Shown here piece by piece: positions 2,376 through 8,315 of a stretch of DNA of 59,032 nucleotides. Positions within the stretch are counted from its first letter, which is position 1. Every line of letters starts with the position of its first letter. A program made the position numbers and the translations under genes. The DNA is taken from contig NZ_JAALFH010000002.1 in assembly GCF_011058255.1 (NCBI RefSeq), forward strand, positions 1 through 59,032, given 5' to 3'. The notes below the pieces were generated by a model. It did not search any database. It had not been told where the DNA came from and saw only the letters and a list, made by a program, of their open reading frames with translations. Origin of the DNA: Thioalkalivibrio sp. XN8 (GTDB lineage Bacteria; Pseudomonadota; Gammaproteobacteria; Steroidobacterales; XN24).

Positions 2376-3320
2376 TCAGCGGCCGCGGTAGCTGAGCGCG
2401 CCCACCCCGGGTGCTCGCCGCTCCCGCAGGACCTCGCGGCGGAAGCGGTACAGCTCGGCCGGCCGGCCGCCGGTGTGCGTATCGATCCGGCCGGTCTTCT
2501 CGACCAGCCCGCCGCGCTCCACCAGGCGGCGGAAGTTCTGCGTGTGCAGGGGCAGTCCGGCCAGCGCCTCGACCACGCGCTGCAGCTGGGCGAGGGTGAA
2601 CTGCTCCTCGACCAGTTCGAAGACCAGCGGTCGGTAACGCAGCTTGCCGCGCAGGCGGGCCAGCCCCGTGGCCAGGATGCGGCGGTGGTCGTGGGCCATC
2701 GGCTTGCCGAACAGGGGCGCCTCGGCCGACGGCCGGGCGCCGCGGTCGAACCAGGACTCGGCCGTAAGGCCCGCCTCGTACAGCAGTTCGTAGCGCTCCA
2801 GTACCCGGTAGCCGTCCCAGCCGGCGCCGCCGAGGCCGAAGCAGATCTCGGTCCGCTCGGTGCGCCGCTCGCGTTCCTTCCTGGCGCGGCCCTGGCGCGC
2901 CCAGGCCGCCAGCGCCTCGCCGATGGGATCGAGGATCGCCGGCCGGTCGTGGCGCCAGTCTTCCCAGGGCAGGAAGCCGTAGCAGCCCATCCAGCGGCCG
3001 CCGGCCGCTTCGGCCGGCAGGTCCTGGGTGAGGGCGAGGTAGGCGACCGAAAGCATGCGCGGGCCGCCGGCCCGTTCGCGGGGGTCGCGGCCCTGGTCGC
3101 CGAAGGTGTAGAGCTGTTCGACGTAGCCGAGCTCGCGGCCGGTCTGGCGCCGGACCCAGTCGCGCAGCCCGAGCTCCAGGGTGCGGTCCTGTTCCGGGTC
3201 GAACGCCCCGGAGGGCAGCATCGGCAGGTCTGACTCGTCGCTCACCGTCAGCACCCGAGGCGCGTCCTCCCGCACCGAGATGATGACGGCGTTCAGCCCG
3301 ACCGTGAGGTCGCCGCTCAT
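2376..3320 (-). CDS. NrtR-like Nudix-family transcriptional regulator of NAD metabolism
   Basis: A 314-aa protein with an N-terminal Nudix fold (about 1-160) and a C-terminal winged-helix region (about 225-300) with the NrtR-like LRGKLRYRPLVFELV and FTLAQLQRVVEAL. The Nudix box at about 38-62 is degenerate: the catalytic Glu pair expected before the TG is Arg-Gln, so hydrolase activity is unlikely and ligand sensing more likely, as in NrtR regulators that bind ADP-ribose-type NAD metabolites. It lies immediately upstream of nadA-nadB on the same strand, supporting NAD control. The ATG overlaps the stop of the K+ channel gene (ATGA). A Nudix hydrolase of unknown substrate is the alternative. 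Confidence 0.8.
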   Translation of the reverse strand: MSGDLTVGLNAVIISVREDAPRVLTVSDESDLPMLPSGAFDPEQDRTLELGLRDWVRRQTGRELGYVEQLYTFGDQGRDPRERAGGPRMLSVAYLALTQDLPAEAAGGRWMGCYGFLPWEDWRHDRPAILDPIGEALAAWARQGRARKERERRTERTEICFGLGGAGWDGYRVLERYELLYEAGLTAESWFDRGARPSAEAPLFGKPMAHDHRRILATGLARLRGKLRYRPLVFELVEEQFTLAQLQRVVEALAGLPLHTQNFRRLVERGGLVEKTGRIDTHTGGRPAELYRFRREVLRERRAPGVGALSYRGR

Positions 3321-4153
3321 GACTGCTCGAGCGCCGCGCCGCACATGCGGCAGTGGTGGGCGTCCGCCTCGTGACCCTTCAGGCCGCACTCGGCGCAGGT
3401 GCGCCGGCCGCGCCGCCGGTTGCTGGCCTGGTAGAACTCGCTGAAGAAGATGCCCATCGGCACGGCGATGATTCCGTAACCGGTGATCATGATCACCGAG
3501 GCGATGAACTTGCCCAGCGGAGTGACCGGGGTGATATCGCCGTAGCCGACCGTGGTGAGGGTCACGATCGCCCAGTACATGCTCATCGGGATGCTGGTGA
3601 AGCCGGCCTCGGGACCTTCCACGTAGTGCATCAGGGTGGCGAACACCACCACCAGGGTGATGACGACATAGACGAATACCAGCGTCTTGCGCCAGCCCGC
3701 TTTCAGCACCTCGAGCAGGATGTTGGCCTCGCCGATGTAGCGGTTCATGTGCATCACGCGGAACAGGCGCAGGATCCGCAGCACGCGGATCACCAGCATC
3801 GGCCCGGTGCCGGTCAGGATCAGCCCGAGGTAGGTCGGGATGACCGACAGCAGATCGACCACGCCGTAGAAGCTGCTGGCGTAGCCCCAGCGATTGCGCA
3901 CGCAGTACAGCCGCAGGAAATACTCCACGGTGAAGATGATGGTGAAGACCCATTCGATGGCGTAGAGAATGCGGCCATGGCGCAGGTTGAACTGGTAGAC
4001 CGTGCTCAGCAGAACCACCGTCACGCTCACCAGGATGGCGGCGATCAGCAGGACGTCGAACAGCATCCCGGCCGGGGTGTCGGAGCGGAAAATGACGCGG
4101 AACAGCGTCTCTTTGCCCGGGCCGCTGCCGGCCTCGTGGCGGGCCCTGGTCAC
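3317..4153 (-). CDS. voltage-gated-type potassium channel with C-terminal zinc-ribbon-like tail
   Basis: Six-transmembrane cation channel subunit of 278 aa. The K+ selectivity filter TVGYGD is at 201-206 and an Arg-rich S4 (RVLRILRLFR) at 123-132; hydrophobic segments lie near 31-50, 64-82, 97-115, 157-176 and 215-236. The cytoplasmic tail carries CAEC (253-256) and CRMC (268-271), spaced like a small zinc ribbon. I chose the GTG at 4153, which overlaps the upstream DUF2063 stop (GTGA); a later Met30 is possible. It sits between the MNIO pair and the NAD regulator, so it may be co-transcribed with both. No cyclic-nucleotide or RCK domain is visible. Confidence 0.88.
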   Translation of the reverse strand: MTRARHEAGSGPGKETLFRVIFRSDTPAGMLFDVLLIAAILVSVTVVLLSTVYQFNLRHGRILYAIEWVFTIIFTVEYFLRLYCVRNRWGYASSFYGVVDLLSVIPTYLGLILTGTGPMLVIRVLRILRLFRVMHMNRYIGEANILLEVLKAGWRKTLVFVYVVITLVVVFATLMHYVEGPEAGFTSIPMSMYWAIVTLTTVGYGDITPVTPLGKFIASVIMITGYGIIAVPMGIFFSEFYQASNRRRGRRTCAECGLKGHEADAHHCRMCGAALEQS

Positions 4154-4950
4154 CGGGCCGCTCCGGCCGTGGACTGGGCCACCGTTTCTTGCCGCACGCC
4201 GAGAATGACGTCCCGGGCCCGGAGGTCGTCGAGGATGGCGGCGCCCGCGGCCACGACCGTGTCGGGCGACGGGTGGCCGAGTTCGGCGGCGATCTGCAGC
4301 AGGCAGTCCCGTCCGCTGGACGCGCCCACGGCCCGGTCGAGCAGCTCCAGCAGCCGCGCCGTCACCGGGTTGATCTCGAGAAAGCCGATCTCGTCGGCCC
4401 GGTCGCGGTAGACGACCAGCCGCGTGGGCTCGGCCGGCGGCTCGGTCGGCTGGAAGTCGGGTGCGATGCGGTGCACCGGCCAAGTGTAGGCCAGCGACCA
4501 CGCCAGCGGCGAGAGCACGGGATGCCCGGCGAGCAGGTTGCCGTCGCGCTCGATGCCGGTGTCGTCGAGGTCCCGCTCGTCGATCGACAGGGCCAGCTCG
4601 ACCCACTCGTAGTGCGCCAGCTCGGCCAGGAAAGGCGGGTCTTCCGGCGCGTCCCGCGCGTCCTCGAGGTAGCGCAGGAACTCGCGCGGCAGCTCGAGGA
4701 ACAGGGGCGTCTGCGCCCGGTGGCGCACCAGCCAGTCGCGCACCATCCGGCTCCAGGCGTCCTCGCCGAGGACGCGCCGGATGACGGGAAAGCTGCGGCC
4801 CAGCAGGTCACGCAGGTTGTTGTAGAACAGCTCACGGTAGATGTTGAGCCGGCGGTCCTCGATCCCGGCCGGGGCCGGCGACCGCTCCGGGTCGCGGATA
4901 TGGGCGGCGAACTCGAGCTGGGTCCGGCGCAGGCGCTCGTGCTCACTCAT
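4150..4950 (-). CDS. DUF2063 (HvfC/BufC-like) partner of an MNIO enzyme
   Basis: A 266-aa protein with the DUF2063 signature: an N-terminal helical domain with [20 protein letters not shown] (34-53) and FPVIRRVLG, then [13 protein letters not shown] (about 114-126) and a C-terminal half containing [15 protein letters not shown]. Known members (MbnC, HvfC, BufC) partner DUF692 enzymes and help recognise the precursor peptide they modify. The gene overlaps the DUF692 gene by 8 bp, so the two are coupled, and it runs into the K+ channel with a 4-bp overlap. The old family label 'putative DNA-binding' is not supported by context. Confidence 0.85.
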
Positions 4951-5806
4951 CGCGGTCCGGCTCGTGCTTGCGCTGCAGGCTGCGGATCACCTCGAGCTCC
5001 CGGCGCAGCTCCGCCAGCGGCGGGATGTTGAAGTCCCGCTCCAGCAGCGTCGGGACTGGACCGAAGCGGGCATAGGCCTGGTCCAGCAGCTGCCACACCG
5101 GGTCCGCTACCGGCGCGCCGTGCGTGTCGACGCGCAGGTCCTCGGCTTCGACGTAATGGCCCGCCACGTGCATGTACACCACGCGCTCGGCGGGCAGGGA
5201 CTCGAGGAACTGCCGCGGGTCGTAGCCGTGGTTCACGGCGTTGACGTAGATGTTGTTGATGTCCAGCAGCAGGCCGCAGTCCGCTTCCTCCAGGACCGCG
5301 CTGAGAAACTCGATTTCCCGCATCTCCTGGCCCGGCGCCGCGTAGTAGGAAACGTTCTCCACCGCGATCGGCCGCGCGAGGATCTCGCTGGCGCGACGGA
5401 TCCGCCCGGCCACGTGCCGCACGGCCTCGGCGGTAAAGGGAATCGGCATCAGGTCGTAGAGGTGGCCGTCGTCGCCGGTGTAGGAGAGATGCTCGGTGTA
5501 GTAGCGGATGCCGTGCAGGTCGAGGAACTCGCGGACCCGGCCGAGAAAGGCCTCGTCCAGCGGCGCCGGCCCGCCCAGCGACAGCGACAGCCCGTGCACG
5601 ACGAAGGGAAAGCGATCGGTGAACCAGCAGAACTTGCGTCCCAGCGCACCGCCGACACCGATCCAGTTCTCGGGCGCCACCTCCATGAAGTCCACGTCCC
5701 AGGGCGGCTCCGCCATCAGCTCGTCCATCATGCTCCGCCTGAGGCCGAGGCCGACGCCGCTGACGGGGTAGGTGTTCTGGCTGTTGCTGTGGTCGTGCTG
5801 TGCCAT
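4943..5806 (-). CDS. DUF692 multinuclear non-heme iron oxidative enzyme (MNIO; MbnB/HvfB/BufB family)
   Basis: A 287-aa TIM-barrel enzyme of the DUF692 family; characterised relatives use two or three irons to modify Cys or other residues in ribosomal peptides such as methanobactin. Family motifs are FMEVAPENW (40-48), [11 protein letters not shown] (69-79), TEHLSY (104-109), [19 protein letters not shown] (180-190), YMHVAGH (211-217) and VDTHG. His71, Glu105/His106, Glu150, Asp182, His193, His213/217, Asp228/His229 and Glu256 are plausible metal ligands by motif position. The N terminus (residues 1-12) is His/Gln/Asn-rich. It is coupled to the DUF2063 gene, but no short precursor gene (DUF2282-type or other Cys-rich) lies next to either. 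Confidence 0.88.
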
Positions 5807-5809
5807 GAC

Positions 5810-6259
5810 TCAGGCGCGGGTATCCCTTTCCAGTGCTCTTAGCGTCTCCAGGTAAGAGACGTCGTCCGGCGCCCGCTGATTGCGCTGCGCCTGCCACAAG
5901 GCCTCGGCCAGGCACTCGGCGATGCGATGCTCCGCCTCATGCCGGCCCAGCCGCGCGACCAGCGCGCCGTAGATGGCGGCGATCCCTGCCGGCCGGTCGG
6001 TGCCGGCCTGCTCGCGGACCGCCAGATGCAAGCCCATGTGGAGGAAGGGATTGCTCTCGCCGCCCTCGGGCGTCCAGTCGCGCGCCAGCGCCTCCGGGTC
6101 GTCCTCGAGCAATCGATGGTACTCGGGATGCTGCTCGATGACATCCGCGACCTGGACTTCCAGCGGCTCCGCCGGGAGGCGCTCCCGGCGCTTGCGCCAC
6201 GCCTCGACGTAAAAGGCGCGCAGTTCTTCGCGGTTATTCGGCAGCAGCACGGCCCGCAT
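5810..6259 (-). CDS. DUF1841 family protein
   Basis: A conserved 149-aa protein of unknown function. It has the usual DUF1841 opening (NREELRAFYVEAWRKRRE), then VIEQHPEYHRLLED, and NPFLHMGLHLAVREQ in the centre. I chose the ATG at 6259, which gives the family length and overlaps the end of nth by 26 bp; upstream in-frame starts lie deeper inside nth. It sits 3 bp before the DUF692 gene and probably belongs to the rsx-nth transcript. Confidence 0.85.
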   Translation of the reverse strand: MRAVLLPNNREELRAFYVEAWRKRRERLPAEPLEVQVADVIEQHPEYHRLLEDDPEALARDWTPEGGESNPFLHMGLHLAVREQAGTDRPAGIAAIYGALVARLGRHEAEHRIAECLAEALWQAQRNQRAPDDVSYLETLRALERDTRA

Positions 6260-6935
6260 CCTTGCGGCGCGTCGTACGCCGCAGCGGCGGCGAGGACGGC
6301 TCGCCGGGGGTCTTGTGACGGTAGTCGCACAGGTCGCGGATGATGCAGTGCGGGCAGTCGGGCTTGCGCGCCTTGCAGACATAGCGGCCGTGCAGGATCA
6401 GCCAGTGGTGGGCGTCGCGCTTGAACTCCGCCGGGGTGACCTTTTCGAGCCGCTCCTCGACCGCGCGCACGGTCTTGCCGGGCGCCAGGCCGGTGCGGTT
6501 CGCGACCCGGAAAATATGGGTATCCACGGCGATGGTGGGCTCGCCGAACGCGGTGTTCAGCACCACGTTGGCGGTCTTGCGGCCCACCCCGGGCAGGGCC
6601 TCGAGGGCCGCGCGGTCGCGCGGGACCTCGCCGCCGTGCTGCGCCAGGAGCATCCGGCACAGGGCAATCACGTTCTTCGCCTTGGCGTTGAACAGCCCGA
6701 TGGTGCTGATGTAGCGCTTCAGCCCCTCTTCGCCGAGCTCCAGTAGGGCCGCGGGCGTGCGCGCCGCCGGGAACAGCCGCGCGGTCGCCTTGTTGACGCC
6801 CTTGTCGGTGGCCTGCGCGGATAGCACCACGGCCACCAGCAGCTCGAAAGGCGTCTCGTAGTTCAGCTCCGTGGTGGGATGCGGATTCGCGTCCCGCAGC
6901 CGGCGATAGAGCTCGTGGCGCTTGGCGTTGTTCAT
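6234..6935 (-). CDS. nth: endonuclease III
   Basis: Base-excision-repair DNA glycosylase/AP lyase for oxidised pyrimidines. The helix-hairpin-helix is ALPGVGRKTANVV, with catalytic Lys120 and Asp138 (VDTHIFRV) at the same numbers as in E. coli. The 4Fe-4S loop reads C-x6-C-x2-C-x5-C (CKARKPDCPHCIIRDLC). At 233 aa it is about 20 aa longer than E. coli Nth because of a basic C-terminal tail (HKTPGEPSSPPLRRTTRRK). It lies 13 bp after rsxE, the conserved rsxABCDGE-nth arrangement. Confidence 0.97.
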   Translation of the reverse strand: MNNAKRHELYRRLRDANPHPTTELNYETPFELLVAVVLSAQATDKGVNKATARLFPAARTPAALLELGEEGLKRYISTIGLFNAKAKNVIALCRMLLAQHGGEVPRDRAALEALPGVGRKTANVVLNTAFGEPTIAVDTHIFRVANRTGLAPGKTVRAVEERLEKVTPAEFKRDAHHWLILHGRYVCKARKPDCPHCIIRDLCDYRHKTPGEPSSPPLRRTTRRKDAGRAAAE

Positions 6936-6948
6936 CGCCGGCCGCGGT

Positions 6949-7635
6949 TCAGGCCGCCTCGCCGGGGGCGGCGGCCGGCAGCGGCGGCGCGGCGGGCTGG
7001 CGGCGCTGCAGCCCGGCGTCGACGAGGTTCTTGGCGGCGACCAGCAGGCCGAGCCCGATAAACGCGCCCGGCGGCAGCAGCGCCAGCAGGAAACCGCCGT
7101 CGAACGCCTGCAGCTCGACGGCGCGGGCCGCCTCGCCGAACATCATGTGCGCGCCGGCGAACAGGGTGCCCTGGCCGATCAGCTCGCGCGCGGCGCCGAG
7201 CGTCACCAGGACCGCAGTGAAGCCCAGCCCCATGGCGATGCCGTCGAGCGCGGCCAGGCCCGGGCGCTCGCGGGAAGCGAAGGCCTCGGCGCGGCCGATG
7301 ATCGCGCAGTTGGTGACGATCAGCGGGATGAAGATGCCCAGCACGCGATACAGCTCGTGGAACCACGCGTTCATCGCCAGTTCCACCGCCGTCACGAAGG
7401 AGGCGATCACCAGCACGAAGACGGGAATGCGGATCTCGGGCCGGACCACGTCGCGGATGAGCGAGACGGTCACGTTGGAGAGCAGCAGCACCAGGGTGGT
7501 GGCGATGCCGAGGCCCAGGCCGTTGACGAAACTCGTGCTGACGGCCAGCAGGGGACACAGGCCCAGCAGCTGGACCAGGCCCGGGTTGTTGCTCCAGAGG
7601 CCGGTGCGCATGACCTCGGCGGCGCGTCCGCTCAT
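6949..7635 (-). CDS. rsxE: Rnf/Rsx electron transport complex subunit E
   Basis: Integral membrane subunit of the ion-pumping ferredoxin:NAD oxidoreductase, in E. coli the SoxR-reducing complex; 228 aa with about six hydrophobic segments. Half-repeat motifs typical of RnfA/RnfE are visible: [20 protein letters not shown] (24-43) and [14 protein letters not shown]. Their two Cys bind a membrane-embedded iron cluster in this family. The C-terminal 20 residues are Ala/Pro-rich. The ATG overlaps the rsxG stop. Confidence 0.96.
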
Positions 7636-8315
7636 TCCTCCTCCTCGTCCCCGGCCGCTGGCGACGGCAACCCGGCGGCGCCGGCCGGCGCGGCGAACAG
7701 GGCGTCACGGTTGCGGTCGAAGTATATCAGCGCGTCGCGCACGGCCGAGACCACGGCCCGCGGCGTGATGGTCGCGCCGGTGAACTGGTCGAAGACGCCG
7801 CCGTCGCGCTGCACCGCCCAGCGCCCGGGCCGCGGGTCCTGCAGGGAACGTCCCTTGAAGCCGCGGATCCAGTCATTGCGTTCCACCTCGATCTTGTCGC
7901 CGAGTCCCGGCGTTTCCCGGTGCGAAACCACGCGCACTCCCCCCAGGGTGCCGTCGGCGCGGATGCCCACCAGCAGGCGGATCGGGCCGCTATAGCCGGC
8001 CGGCGCGGTCGGCGTCAGCACTGCGGCGACCGGCTTGCCGTCGCGGCGGGCGCGATACACGGTCACCGGCTCCGGCGTGCCGAGCAGCTCCGGGTCGGTC
8101 ACGGTGATGGCGTCCTCGTGTACGGCGTTGTCGTAGCCGTCCGCCGGCAGCACGTCGGCGAGGCTGCGCAGCAGGAAGTCCTGCTCGTTCGCCGCGATCC
8201 GCTCCGCGGTCGACTCCCAGGTGAGCGCGACCAGCACCGCGCCCAGCACGGCGAAGCCCGCCAGCAGGCCGGCGGCCCGCCGCATGCTGCGCAACACTTC
8301 AGCCCGCGTGGCCAT
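7632..8315 (-). CDS. rsxG: Rnf/Rsx electron transport complex subunit G
   Basis: A 227-aa membrane-anchored flavoprotein subunit. A single N-terminal membrane segment (about 14-30) leads to a periplasmic FMN-binding domain. The covalent FMN attachment motif is FTGATITPR, with the TGAT Thr expected to carry the flavin. The start overlaps rsxD by 17 bp. The C terminus ends in acidic residues (GDEEEE). Confidence 0.95.

Follow-up and report, generated by a model that had tools for sequence, protein, structure and literature searches.

The closest described relatives of the system analysed here are three MNIO pathways. In Haemophilus influenzae the hvf genes form one cluster, encoding the HvfABC(X) oxazolin system of the Buf_EGKCG family. 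The captophorin/fontiphorin system FonABC (PMC12668002) also modifies EGKCG repeats with the help of a PME1 partner, while bufferin 1 clusters, in which the precursor belongs to DUF2282, share with the system analysed here the core arrangement precursor-MNIO-PME1-DoxX together with sigma factor genes (PMC12452194; these papers, PMC13419390 and PMC12538549 are cited from the available parts of their text). The window, the whole stretch of DNA that was analysed (59,032 nucleotides of Thioalkalivibrio sp. XN8, contig NZ_JAALFH010000002.1, positions 1 to 59,032), carries on its minus strand hvfB (4943-5806), encoding an MNIO (DUF692) maturase, and hvfC (4150-4950), the product of which combines DUF2063 with an RRE-type NGO1945_C domain and is a PME-type 1 partner. 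We consider it very likely that the two proteins act as the HvfB-HvfC maturase in a pathway for copper-binding peptides of the oxazolin/captophorin type, with its parts at separate loci.

HvfB scores 346.7 bits against PF05114 and 422.7 bits against the NCBIfam model NF003818 (cut-off 360), and its closest sequence in the PDB is 3bww (E 2.5e-76). HvfC matches PF09836 and PF22106 and reaches 315.3 bits with NF050145 (cut-off 142). Reading of the sequence gave a gap of 3 bp between the upstream DUF1841 gene and hvfB, an overlap of 8 bp between hvfB and hvfC, and an overlap of 4 bp (GTGA) between hvfC and the following ion channel gene; the last junction is ATGA in the other two members of the genus (L033 and L040; L, G, C and f numbers are our handles for loci, genomes, contigs and families). 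The junctions leave no space for a precursor gene, and no exact copy of the EGKCG DNA pattern occurs on the window's contig, in agreement with the original prediction for this locus, the coordinates and overlaps of which were also correct. Its statement that no DUF2282 or DoxX gene is present stands for DUF2282, the best match in the genome being 12.7 bits (cut-off 22.4), and a DUF2282 precursor was rejected as the substrate on this ground. For DoxX it stands only beside the pair, as a DoxX/HvfX gene sits elsewhere in the genome, next to a precursor gene. The second MNIO locus for which a search had been proposed was not found in this genome, where the MNIO count is one.

A genome search for precursors at other loci found two. 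The EGKCG motif used in this search was suggested by precursors with EGKCG/EGSCG repeats that lie directly before hvfB at L055 and L078 of family f15. In the window's genome (G000) the corresponding DNA pattern has 10 matches, against 2 for a reversed-pattern control, and these form two clusters, six on contig C17 and four on C25. The first cluster lies in an HvfA-type open reading frame (ORF) of 112 amino acids with six EGKCG motifs (C17, L091:7699-8037), which is followed by the HvfX/DoxX gene (139.2 bits with the HvfX model, cut-off 80; the one hvfX found over the cut-off in this genome) and accompanied by a divergent gene for an extracytoplasmic function (ECF) sigma factor. The second, with four EGKCG motifs in 102 amino acids, is located between hemB and tag (C25, L092:7495-7803). 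Both ORFs pass the cut-off of the HvfA-family repeat domain (41.2 bits for C17 and 24.6 bits for C25, cut-off 19.5), begin with what by eye are signal-peptide-like leaders, and lie well inside their contigs, with more than 45 kb to the nearer end in each case.

The genome thus matches H. influenzae in encoding HvfB, HvfC and HvfX over the NCBIfam cut-offs and the HvfA repeat domain over its cut-off, but differs in that hvfBC lie apart from the two hvfA genes and hvfX stands with the second hvfA. With FonABC it shares the Arg-Arg and Asp-Phe residues described below, the EGKCG repeats and the PME1 partner; in contrast, the precursor here is not adjacent to the enzyme and its product is predicted. 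Adjacency of precursor and MNIO, which is usual in the captophorin/oxazolin pathway, is lacking here, the precursors being on other contigs. Bufferin 1 differs in its precursor, the genome having no DUF2282 over the cut-off, and in its enzyme, HvfB scoring 264.6 bits against the BufB model, below its cut-off of 310. Antoine et al. 2025 (PMC12452194) suggested that enzymes encoded at a different locus may modify precursors unlinked to an MNIO, and that several precursors may share a single MNIO-PME pair. The window pair belongs to a known kind of system divided among loci, for which unlinked precursors and action in trans had already been suggested. However, the available text of that paper gives no pairing of an enzyme locus with a precursor locus, such as that seen here, across the order, between rsx-nth-hvfBC(X) and hemB-hvfA-tag, and no description of this split was found in the available parts of the literature on MNIO, HvfABC, EGKCG, oxazolin or captophorin.

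The selectivity residues of the enzyme fit the EGKCG repeat. According to PMC12668002, two residue pairs, Arg15-Arg16 and Asp249-Phe250 in FonB, are retained by MNIOs of the EGKCG ('Lys-Cys') type, although one sentence of that paper, contrary to the rest of the section available, puts the second Arg in the Cys-Lys group. HvfB of the window carries R23-R24 and D258-F259 at the matching positions. Relatives were surveyed in 59 genomes of the order, the window's own included, of which 46 contain an MNIO; their tblastn identities with the window HvfB separate these into type A (at least 59%; 38 genomes, the window's own included) and type B (36-43%; 12 genomes, four of which also have type A). 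In the type A loci of the relatives R23 and R24 are present in 37/37 and D258 and F259 in 36/37, the odd locus probably being the broken gene of G039, whereas R24 and F259 are found in none of the 12 type B loci. The G039 gene (L050, G039:C10:9685-10444) encodes HvfB in two frames, reflecting either a true frameshift or an assembly error. The putative metal-site residues E42, H71, H106, E150, D182, N184, H213, D227, H229 and E256 are all kept in the window HvfB and are invariant across it, the 37 type A and the 12 type B loci, save for one gap each at H213, D227 and H229.

Precursor and enzyme also occur together. An ORF was counted as HvfA-like if it contained at least two motifs, with loci taken from the EGKCG pattern matches listed and from matches to the domain model. 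By this measure a full ORF is present in 35/38 type A genomes, and fragments at contig edges in G023 and G047 bring the total to 37/38, compared with 0/21 of the other genomes (Fisher P = 4e-15). With the HvfA repeat-domain model alone (E 0.1), matches appear in 35/38 type A genomes, all but G015, G023 and G056, and in 0/21 others (P = 4e-13). These P values are not corrected for shared ancestry and, since the genomes are related, overstate the case. The model's own cut-off is passed by 31/59 genomes; G015 does possess an HvfA ORF that the model overlooks, and in G027 the model's match (C12) differs from the hemB-tag precursor (C2), which was seen by the pattern. HvfX over its cut-off is present in 37/38 type A genomes (G010 having only a contig-edge piece) and in 0/21 others. 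Families f2, f4 and f15 vary in the presence of HvfB and HvfA, consistently within each family, while f16 contains an exception, G056. Among the matches listed, single EGKCG matches in genomes without type A HvfB lie in G049, G052 and G057, as well as on two separate contigs of G045; no ORF with two motifs was found at the single-match sites L101, L117, L121 and L115, which include one of the two G045 sites. Three HvfA paralogues (L178, L180 and L188; G024, G010 and G034) end in a Gly-rich, hydrophobic, Arg-containing C-terminal tail, which we take to be like the GlyGly-CTERM sorting signal. A Pfam scan of L180 and L188 returned no match, and these paralogues are possibly membrane- or surface-anchored copper peptides.

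Precursors encoded in trans share a leader motif with those encoded beside the enzyme. In a loose form, PF...GYM is present in 32/36 trans ORFs and 36/48 adjacent ORFs, and the motif is intact in the C25 precursor (PFGMTALSSGYM). The four trans ORFs without it all belong to family f12 (L183-L186; G017, G042, G030 and G053), which also has the most diverged HvfC (33-40% identity, against 44-74% elsewhere). This is the pattern expected if HvfC reads the leader, and in f12 the leader and its partner HvfC seem to change together. The f12 precursors are short, acidic and of the EGSCG kind. In family f7 (L162, L165, L172 and L182; G012, G026, G050 and G039) the precursors are mostly EGSCG, yet HvfB keeps the EGKCG-type residues. 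Closer inspection of these two families, and of G015, resolved apparent exceptions to the co-occurrence of enzyme and precursor; only G056 is left. Collectively, the trans precursor genes, their co-occurrence with the enzyme, the selectivity residues and the common leader motif support the option, raised in the original prediction, that the substrate of the pair is encoded elsewhere.

Both loci have recurrent neighbours in the relatives. At 32 of the 37 type A loci these are nth, DUF1841 or rsx genes, and the exceptions are L034, L055, L064, L076 and L078. Among the 35 genomes with a full hvfA ORF, the sequence around the gene includes hemB and/or tag in 31, of which 24 have both; neither accompanies it in G024 and G053, nor in G020 and G055, where hvfA adjoins hvfB. 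Where both parts lie on one contig they can still be far apart, as in G006, where hvfBC and hvfA are separated by ~726 kb on a contig of 2.9 Mb. Sigma factor genes were detected by tblastn in 16 hvfA stretches. In G001, Pfam identified a sigma factor gene and then a DUF3379 gene upstream of the hemB-tag hvfA, a pair missing from the window's genome; G002 also has a sigma factor gene by the hemB-tag hvfA, while the sigma factor gene beside the C17 hvfA of the window's genome is a different one. In 29/38 genomes hvfX directly follows hvfC, its start lying 1.6-1.8 kb from the HvfB match (G010 contributing a contig-edge piece). In all three members of the window's genus hvfX is away from hvfBC, being on C17 here, while G001 and G002 have it ~16 kb away from hvfA; the DNA flanking hvfX in G001 matches that of G002, and neither matches C17.

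A precursor hidden at the enzyme locus was sought at the 37 type A loci of the relatives by inspecting, by eye, Cys-containing closed ORFs of at least 25 amino acids in the gap between hvfB and its upstream gene (else in 1.5 kb). Precursor-like ORFs were present only in L055 and L078, and a local precursor was therefore rejected as a general solution. In G047 an EGKCG fragment at a contig edge near hvfBC lies outside the reach of this closed-ORF scan. An ORF of 471-472 amino acids between DUF1841 and hvfB (L057 in G006 and L070 in G005), which is lipoprotein-like and has a single Cys, was discarded as a precursor candidate.

How the split may have arisen is suggested by a survey of named records, restricted to the best 80 of at least 577 loci, in which a locus was scored as split if the 1.2 kb upstream showed no repeat ORF in the same orientation. 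In 18 of these loci hvfA lies beside hvfB together with neighbours of the nth set, an intermediate order, while 30 have hvfA without the nth set, 16 the nth set without hvfA, nine neither, and seven have less than 1 kb of upstream sequence. The 59-genome set shares three of these 80 loci, recognised by their identical rows in the tree (L242/L059, L247/L075 and L317/L073), and the two surveys are thus not fully independent. The gene order in related lineages is rsx-nth-DUF1841-hvfA-hvfB-hvfC(-hvfX). In a FastTree phylogeny of HvfB the window's lineage groups with rows that lack a local hvfA, named Woeseiaceae included, and this group comprises 49 rows (43 split, one adjacent and five unlabelled). 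At least eight changes between the split and adjacent states are required on the tree, compared with a mean of 37.1 after shuffling. The simplest reading of these sequences is an ancestral rsx-nth-DUF1841-hvfABC(X) cluster from which hvfA was later lost; a gain of hvfA, in the opposite direction, is possible, and the HvfB tree leaves the direction unfixed. On the former reading hvfA, and in the window's genus also hvfX, appears to have moved from the ancestral cluster.

Several observations weigh against assigning the window pair to a divided HvfABC(X) pathway. Neither precursor of the window's genome passes the cut-off of the full-length HvfA equivalog NF050188 (54.8 and 20.9 bits, cut-off 95), and both are for this reason labelled HvfA-type and not H. 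influenzae HvfA proper. The leader of the C17 precursor is diverged (LFSAVDLDRGYM) and was counted by the loose pattern only, so this precursor may be modified poorly or not at all. G056, the genome of which is 82% complete, has HvfB and HvfX, but HvfA was not found in it, and the four f12 precursors, with 2-4 motifs, have no leader motif. R23 (9/12) and D258 (12/12) are common in type B loci and hence not selective, leaving the second Arg and the Phe to carry the selectivity signal. In the HvfB tree, support for the split group is 84, not starred, and 15 of 58 split rows fall outside the window's group. Finally, co-occurrence alone leaves room for a further substrate.

A substrate of that kind, unrecognised and modified besides or instead of HvfA, would find precedent in a published survey, in which ~4,000 MNIOs from the large cluster lacked a neighbouring precursor of any of the four main kinds and new candidate ORFs were proposed for hundreds of them (PMC12452194). 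We regard it as very improbable, as the selectivity residues fit EGKCG, the leader motif is common to trans and adjacent precursors, and HvfA accompanies the type A enzyme in all but one genome; the proposal overlaps with the divided pathway, and the odds of the two need not sum to one. Even less probable is that the pair is a remnant that no longer modifies anything, the trans precursors binding metal through their thiols without being modified. It has been noted that a precursor might escape modification if no MNIO is linked to it (PMC12452194). However, the window HvfB keeps the residues that are invariant across types A and B, the pair has persisted in a large part of the order, and precursor, HvfX and enzyme occur or are missing as a set.

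The least credible proposal concerns the gene downstream of hvfC (3317-4153, minus strand), which encodes a Kv-like ion channel with a TVGYG motif and a C-terminal, zinc-ribbon-like CxxC...CxxC tail (PF00520, Ion_trans; the reference translation scanned is one codon too long). The original prediction coupled the enzyme pair to this channel and, as the alternative to a substrate encoded elsewhere, had the pair act on a full-sized neighbour protein. The three-gene unit is conserved in 3/3 members of the genus and was seen nowhere beyond it, with no linkage observed in the other 35 type A genomes, although contigs end inside hvfC in G040 and G019, which limits this check. Channel homologues occur in 24/59 genomes (E 1e-20). 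Outside the genus, eight genomes have orthologues with 51-57% identity, all of which retain the CxxC...CxxC tail (8/8); none adjoins hvfBC or has Hvf genes within 1.5 kb, and where the orthologue shares a contig with hvfBC it is far off (~25 kb in G005, ~39 kb in G004). One of the eight, in G048, keeps the tail in a genome without type A HvfB or HvfA. The tail contains no EGKCG, and in the window's genus the channel occupies the position usually held by hvfX. Literature pairing an MNIO with an ion channel yielded only unrelated work. Modification of the channel by the pair, for example at the tail cysteines so as to regulate ion flow, could draw on the 4 bp overlap throughout the genus, on the paired Cys residues and on the suggestion that MNIOs may act on full proteins (PMC12452194), but it is scarcely credible given tails that persist in unlinked orthologues and a usual downstream gene that is hvfX. 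Coupling to the channel is not supported. The refuting observations named in the original prediction have largely been made: candidate precursors that may depend on the pair were found elsewhere, and the linkage is absent outside the genus, although the other genus members keep it. For the tail we favour a zinc ribbon that has nothing to do with HvfBC, and the channel is probably a genus-level arrival outside the pathway that at most shares a transcript with hvfBC.

For the divided HvfABC(X) pathway a mechanism can be proposed by analogy. HvfB needs HvfC for the mixed-valent diiron state that accompanies 5-thiooxazole formation (PMC13419390), and an EGKCG substrate with two repeats lost 8 Da when modified by the heterodimer of FonB and FonC (PMC12668002), which corresponds to ~4 Da per site. 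We infer equivalent chemistry, complex formation, export and copper binding in the window system. The RRE-type domain of HvfC would bind the leader of HvfA precursors produced from the other loci, HvfB, an enzyme with an iron cluster, would turn the Cys of the EGKCG repeats into thiooxazole, and a Sec signal peptide would direct export of HvfA, after which the exported peptide would bind copper. The authors of work on Microbulbifer were hesitant to assign a copper-protective role (PMC12538549).

The separation of the two loci could also be functional. The location of the maturase by rsx-nth, and of the precursor in many relatives behind an ECF sigma factor gene at hemB-tag, prompts the idea that the Rsx membrane complex feeds electrons that hold the HvfB iron cluster mixed-valent and active, while the precursor is made on demand. 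This seems unlikely, gene order being the sole evidence for the part given to Rsx. It is similarly doubtful that maturation capacity is constitutive and redox-coupled while the dose of precursor is stress-induced; the hemB-tag copy of hvfA in the window's genome has no sigma factor gene beside it.

The minus-strand order of the window is rsxC-(D)-G-E, nth, DUF1841, hvfB, hvfC, channel, NrtR_WHD regulator and nadA, with rsxD assigned by reading the sequence and not from the profile scan. Upstream of hvfB, and supported by synteny in each case, are genes for the electron transport complex subunits rsxG (7632-8315; NF002519, 226.1 bits, cut-off 178) and rsxE (6949-7635; NF009070, 317.3 bits, cut-off 184), followed by two frequent hvfB neighbours, nth, encoding endonuclease III (6234-6935; TIGR01083, 282.4 bits, cut-off 211.7), and the DUF1841 gene (5810-6259; PF08897, 177.7 bits). 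No literature pairing DUF692 with endonuclease III was found. Downstream of the channel are a gene for a winged-helix regulator with NrtR_WHD (2376-3320; Pfam) and the adjoining nadA (1241-2239), an arrangement seen in all three genus members and plausibly an NAD-synthesis regulation pair.

These data resolve, across the order, the case of one MNIO class without an adjacent precursor, the precursor residing at a second, largely fixed locus. They also suggest a cheap route by which enzymes and precursors may be paired, in which the selectivity residues of the enzyme are read and the genome is then scanned for the matching repeat. In addition, the frequent rsx-nth neighbourhood provides a lead on how iron enzymes of the MNIO type are reduced in cells.

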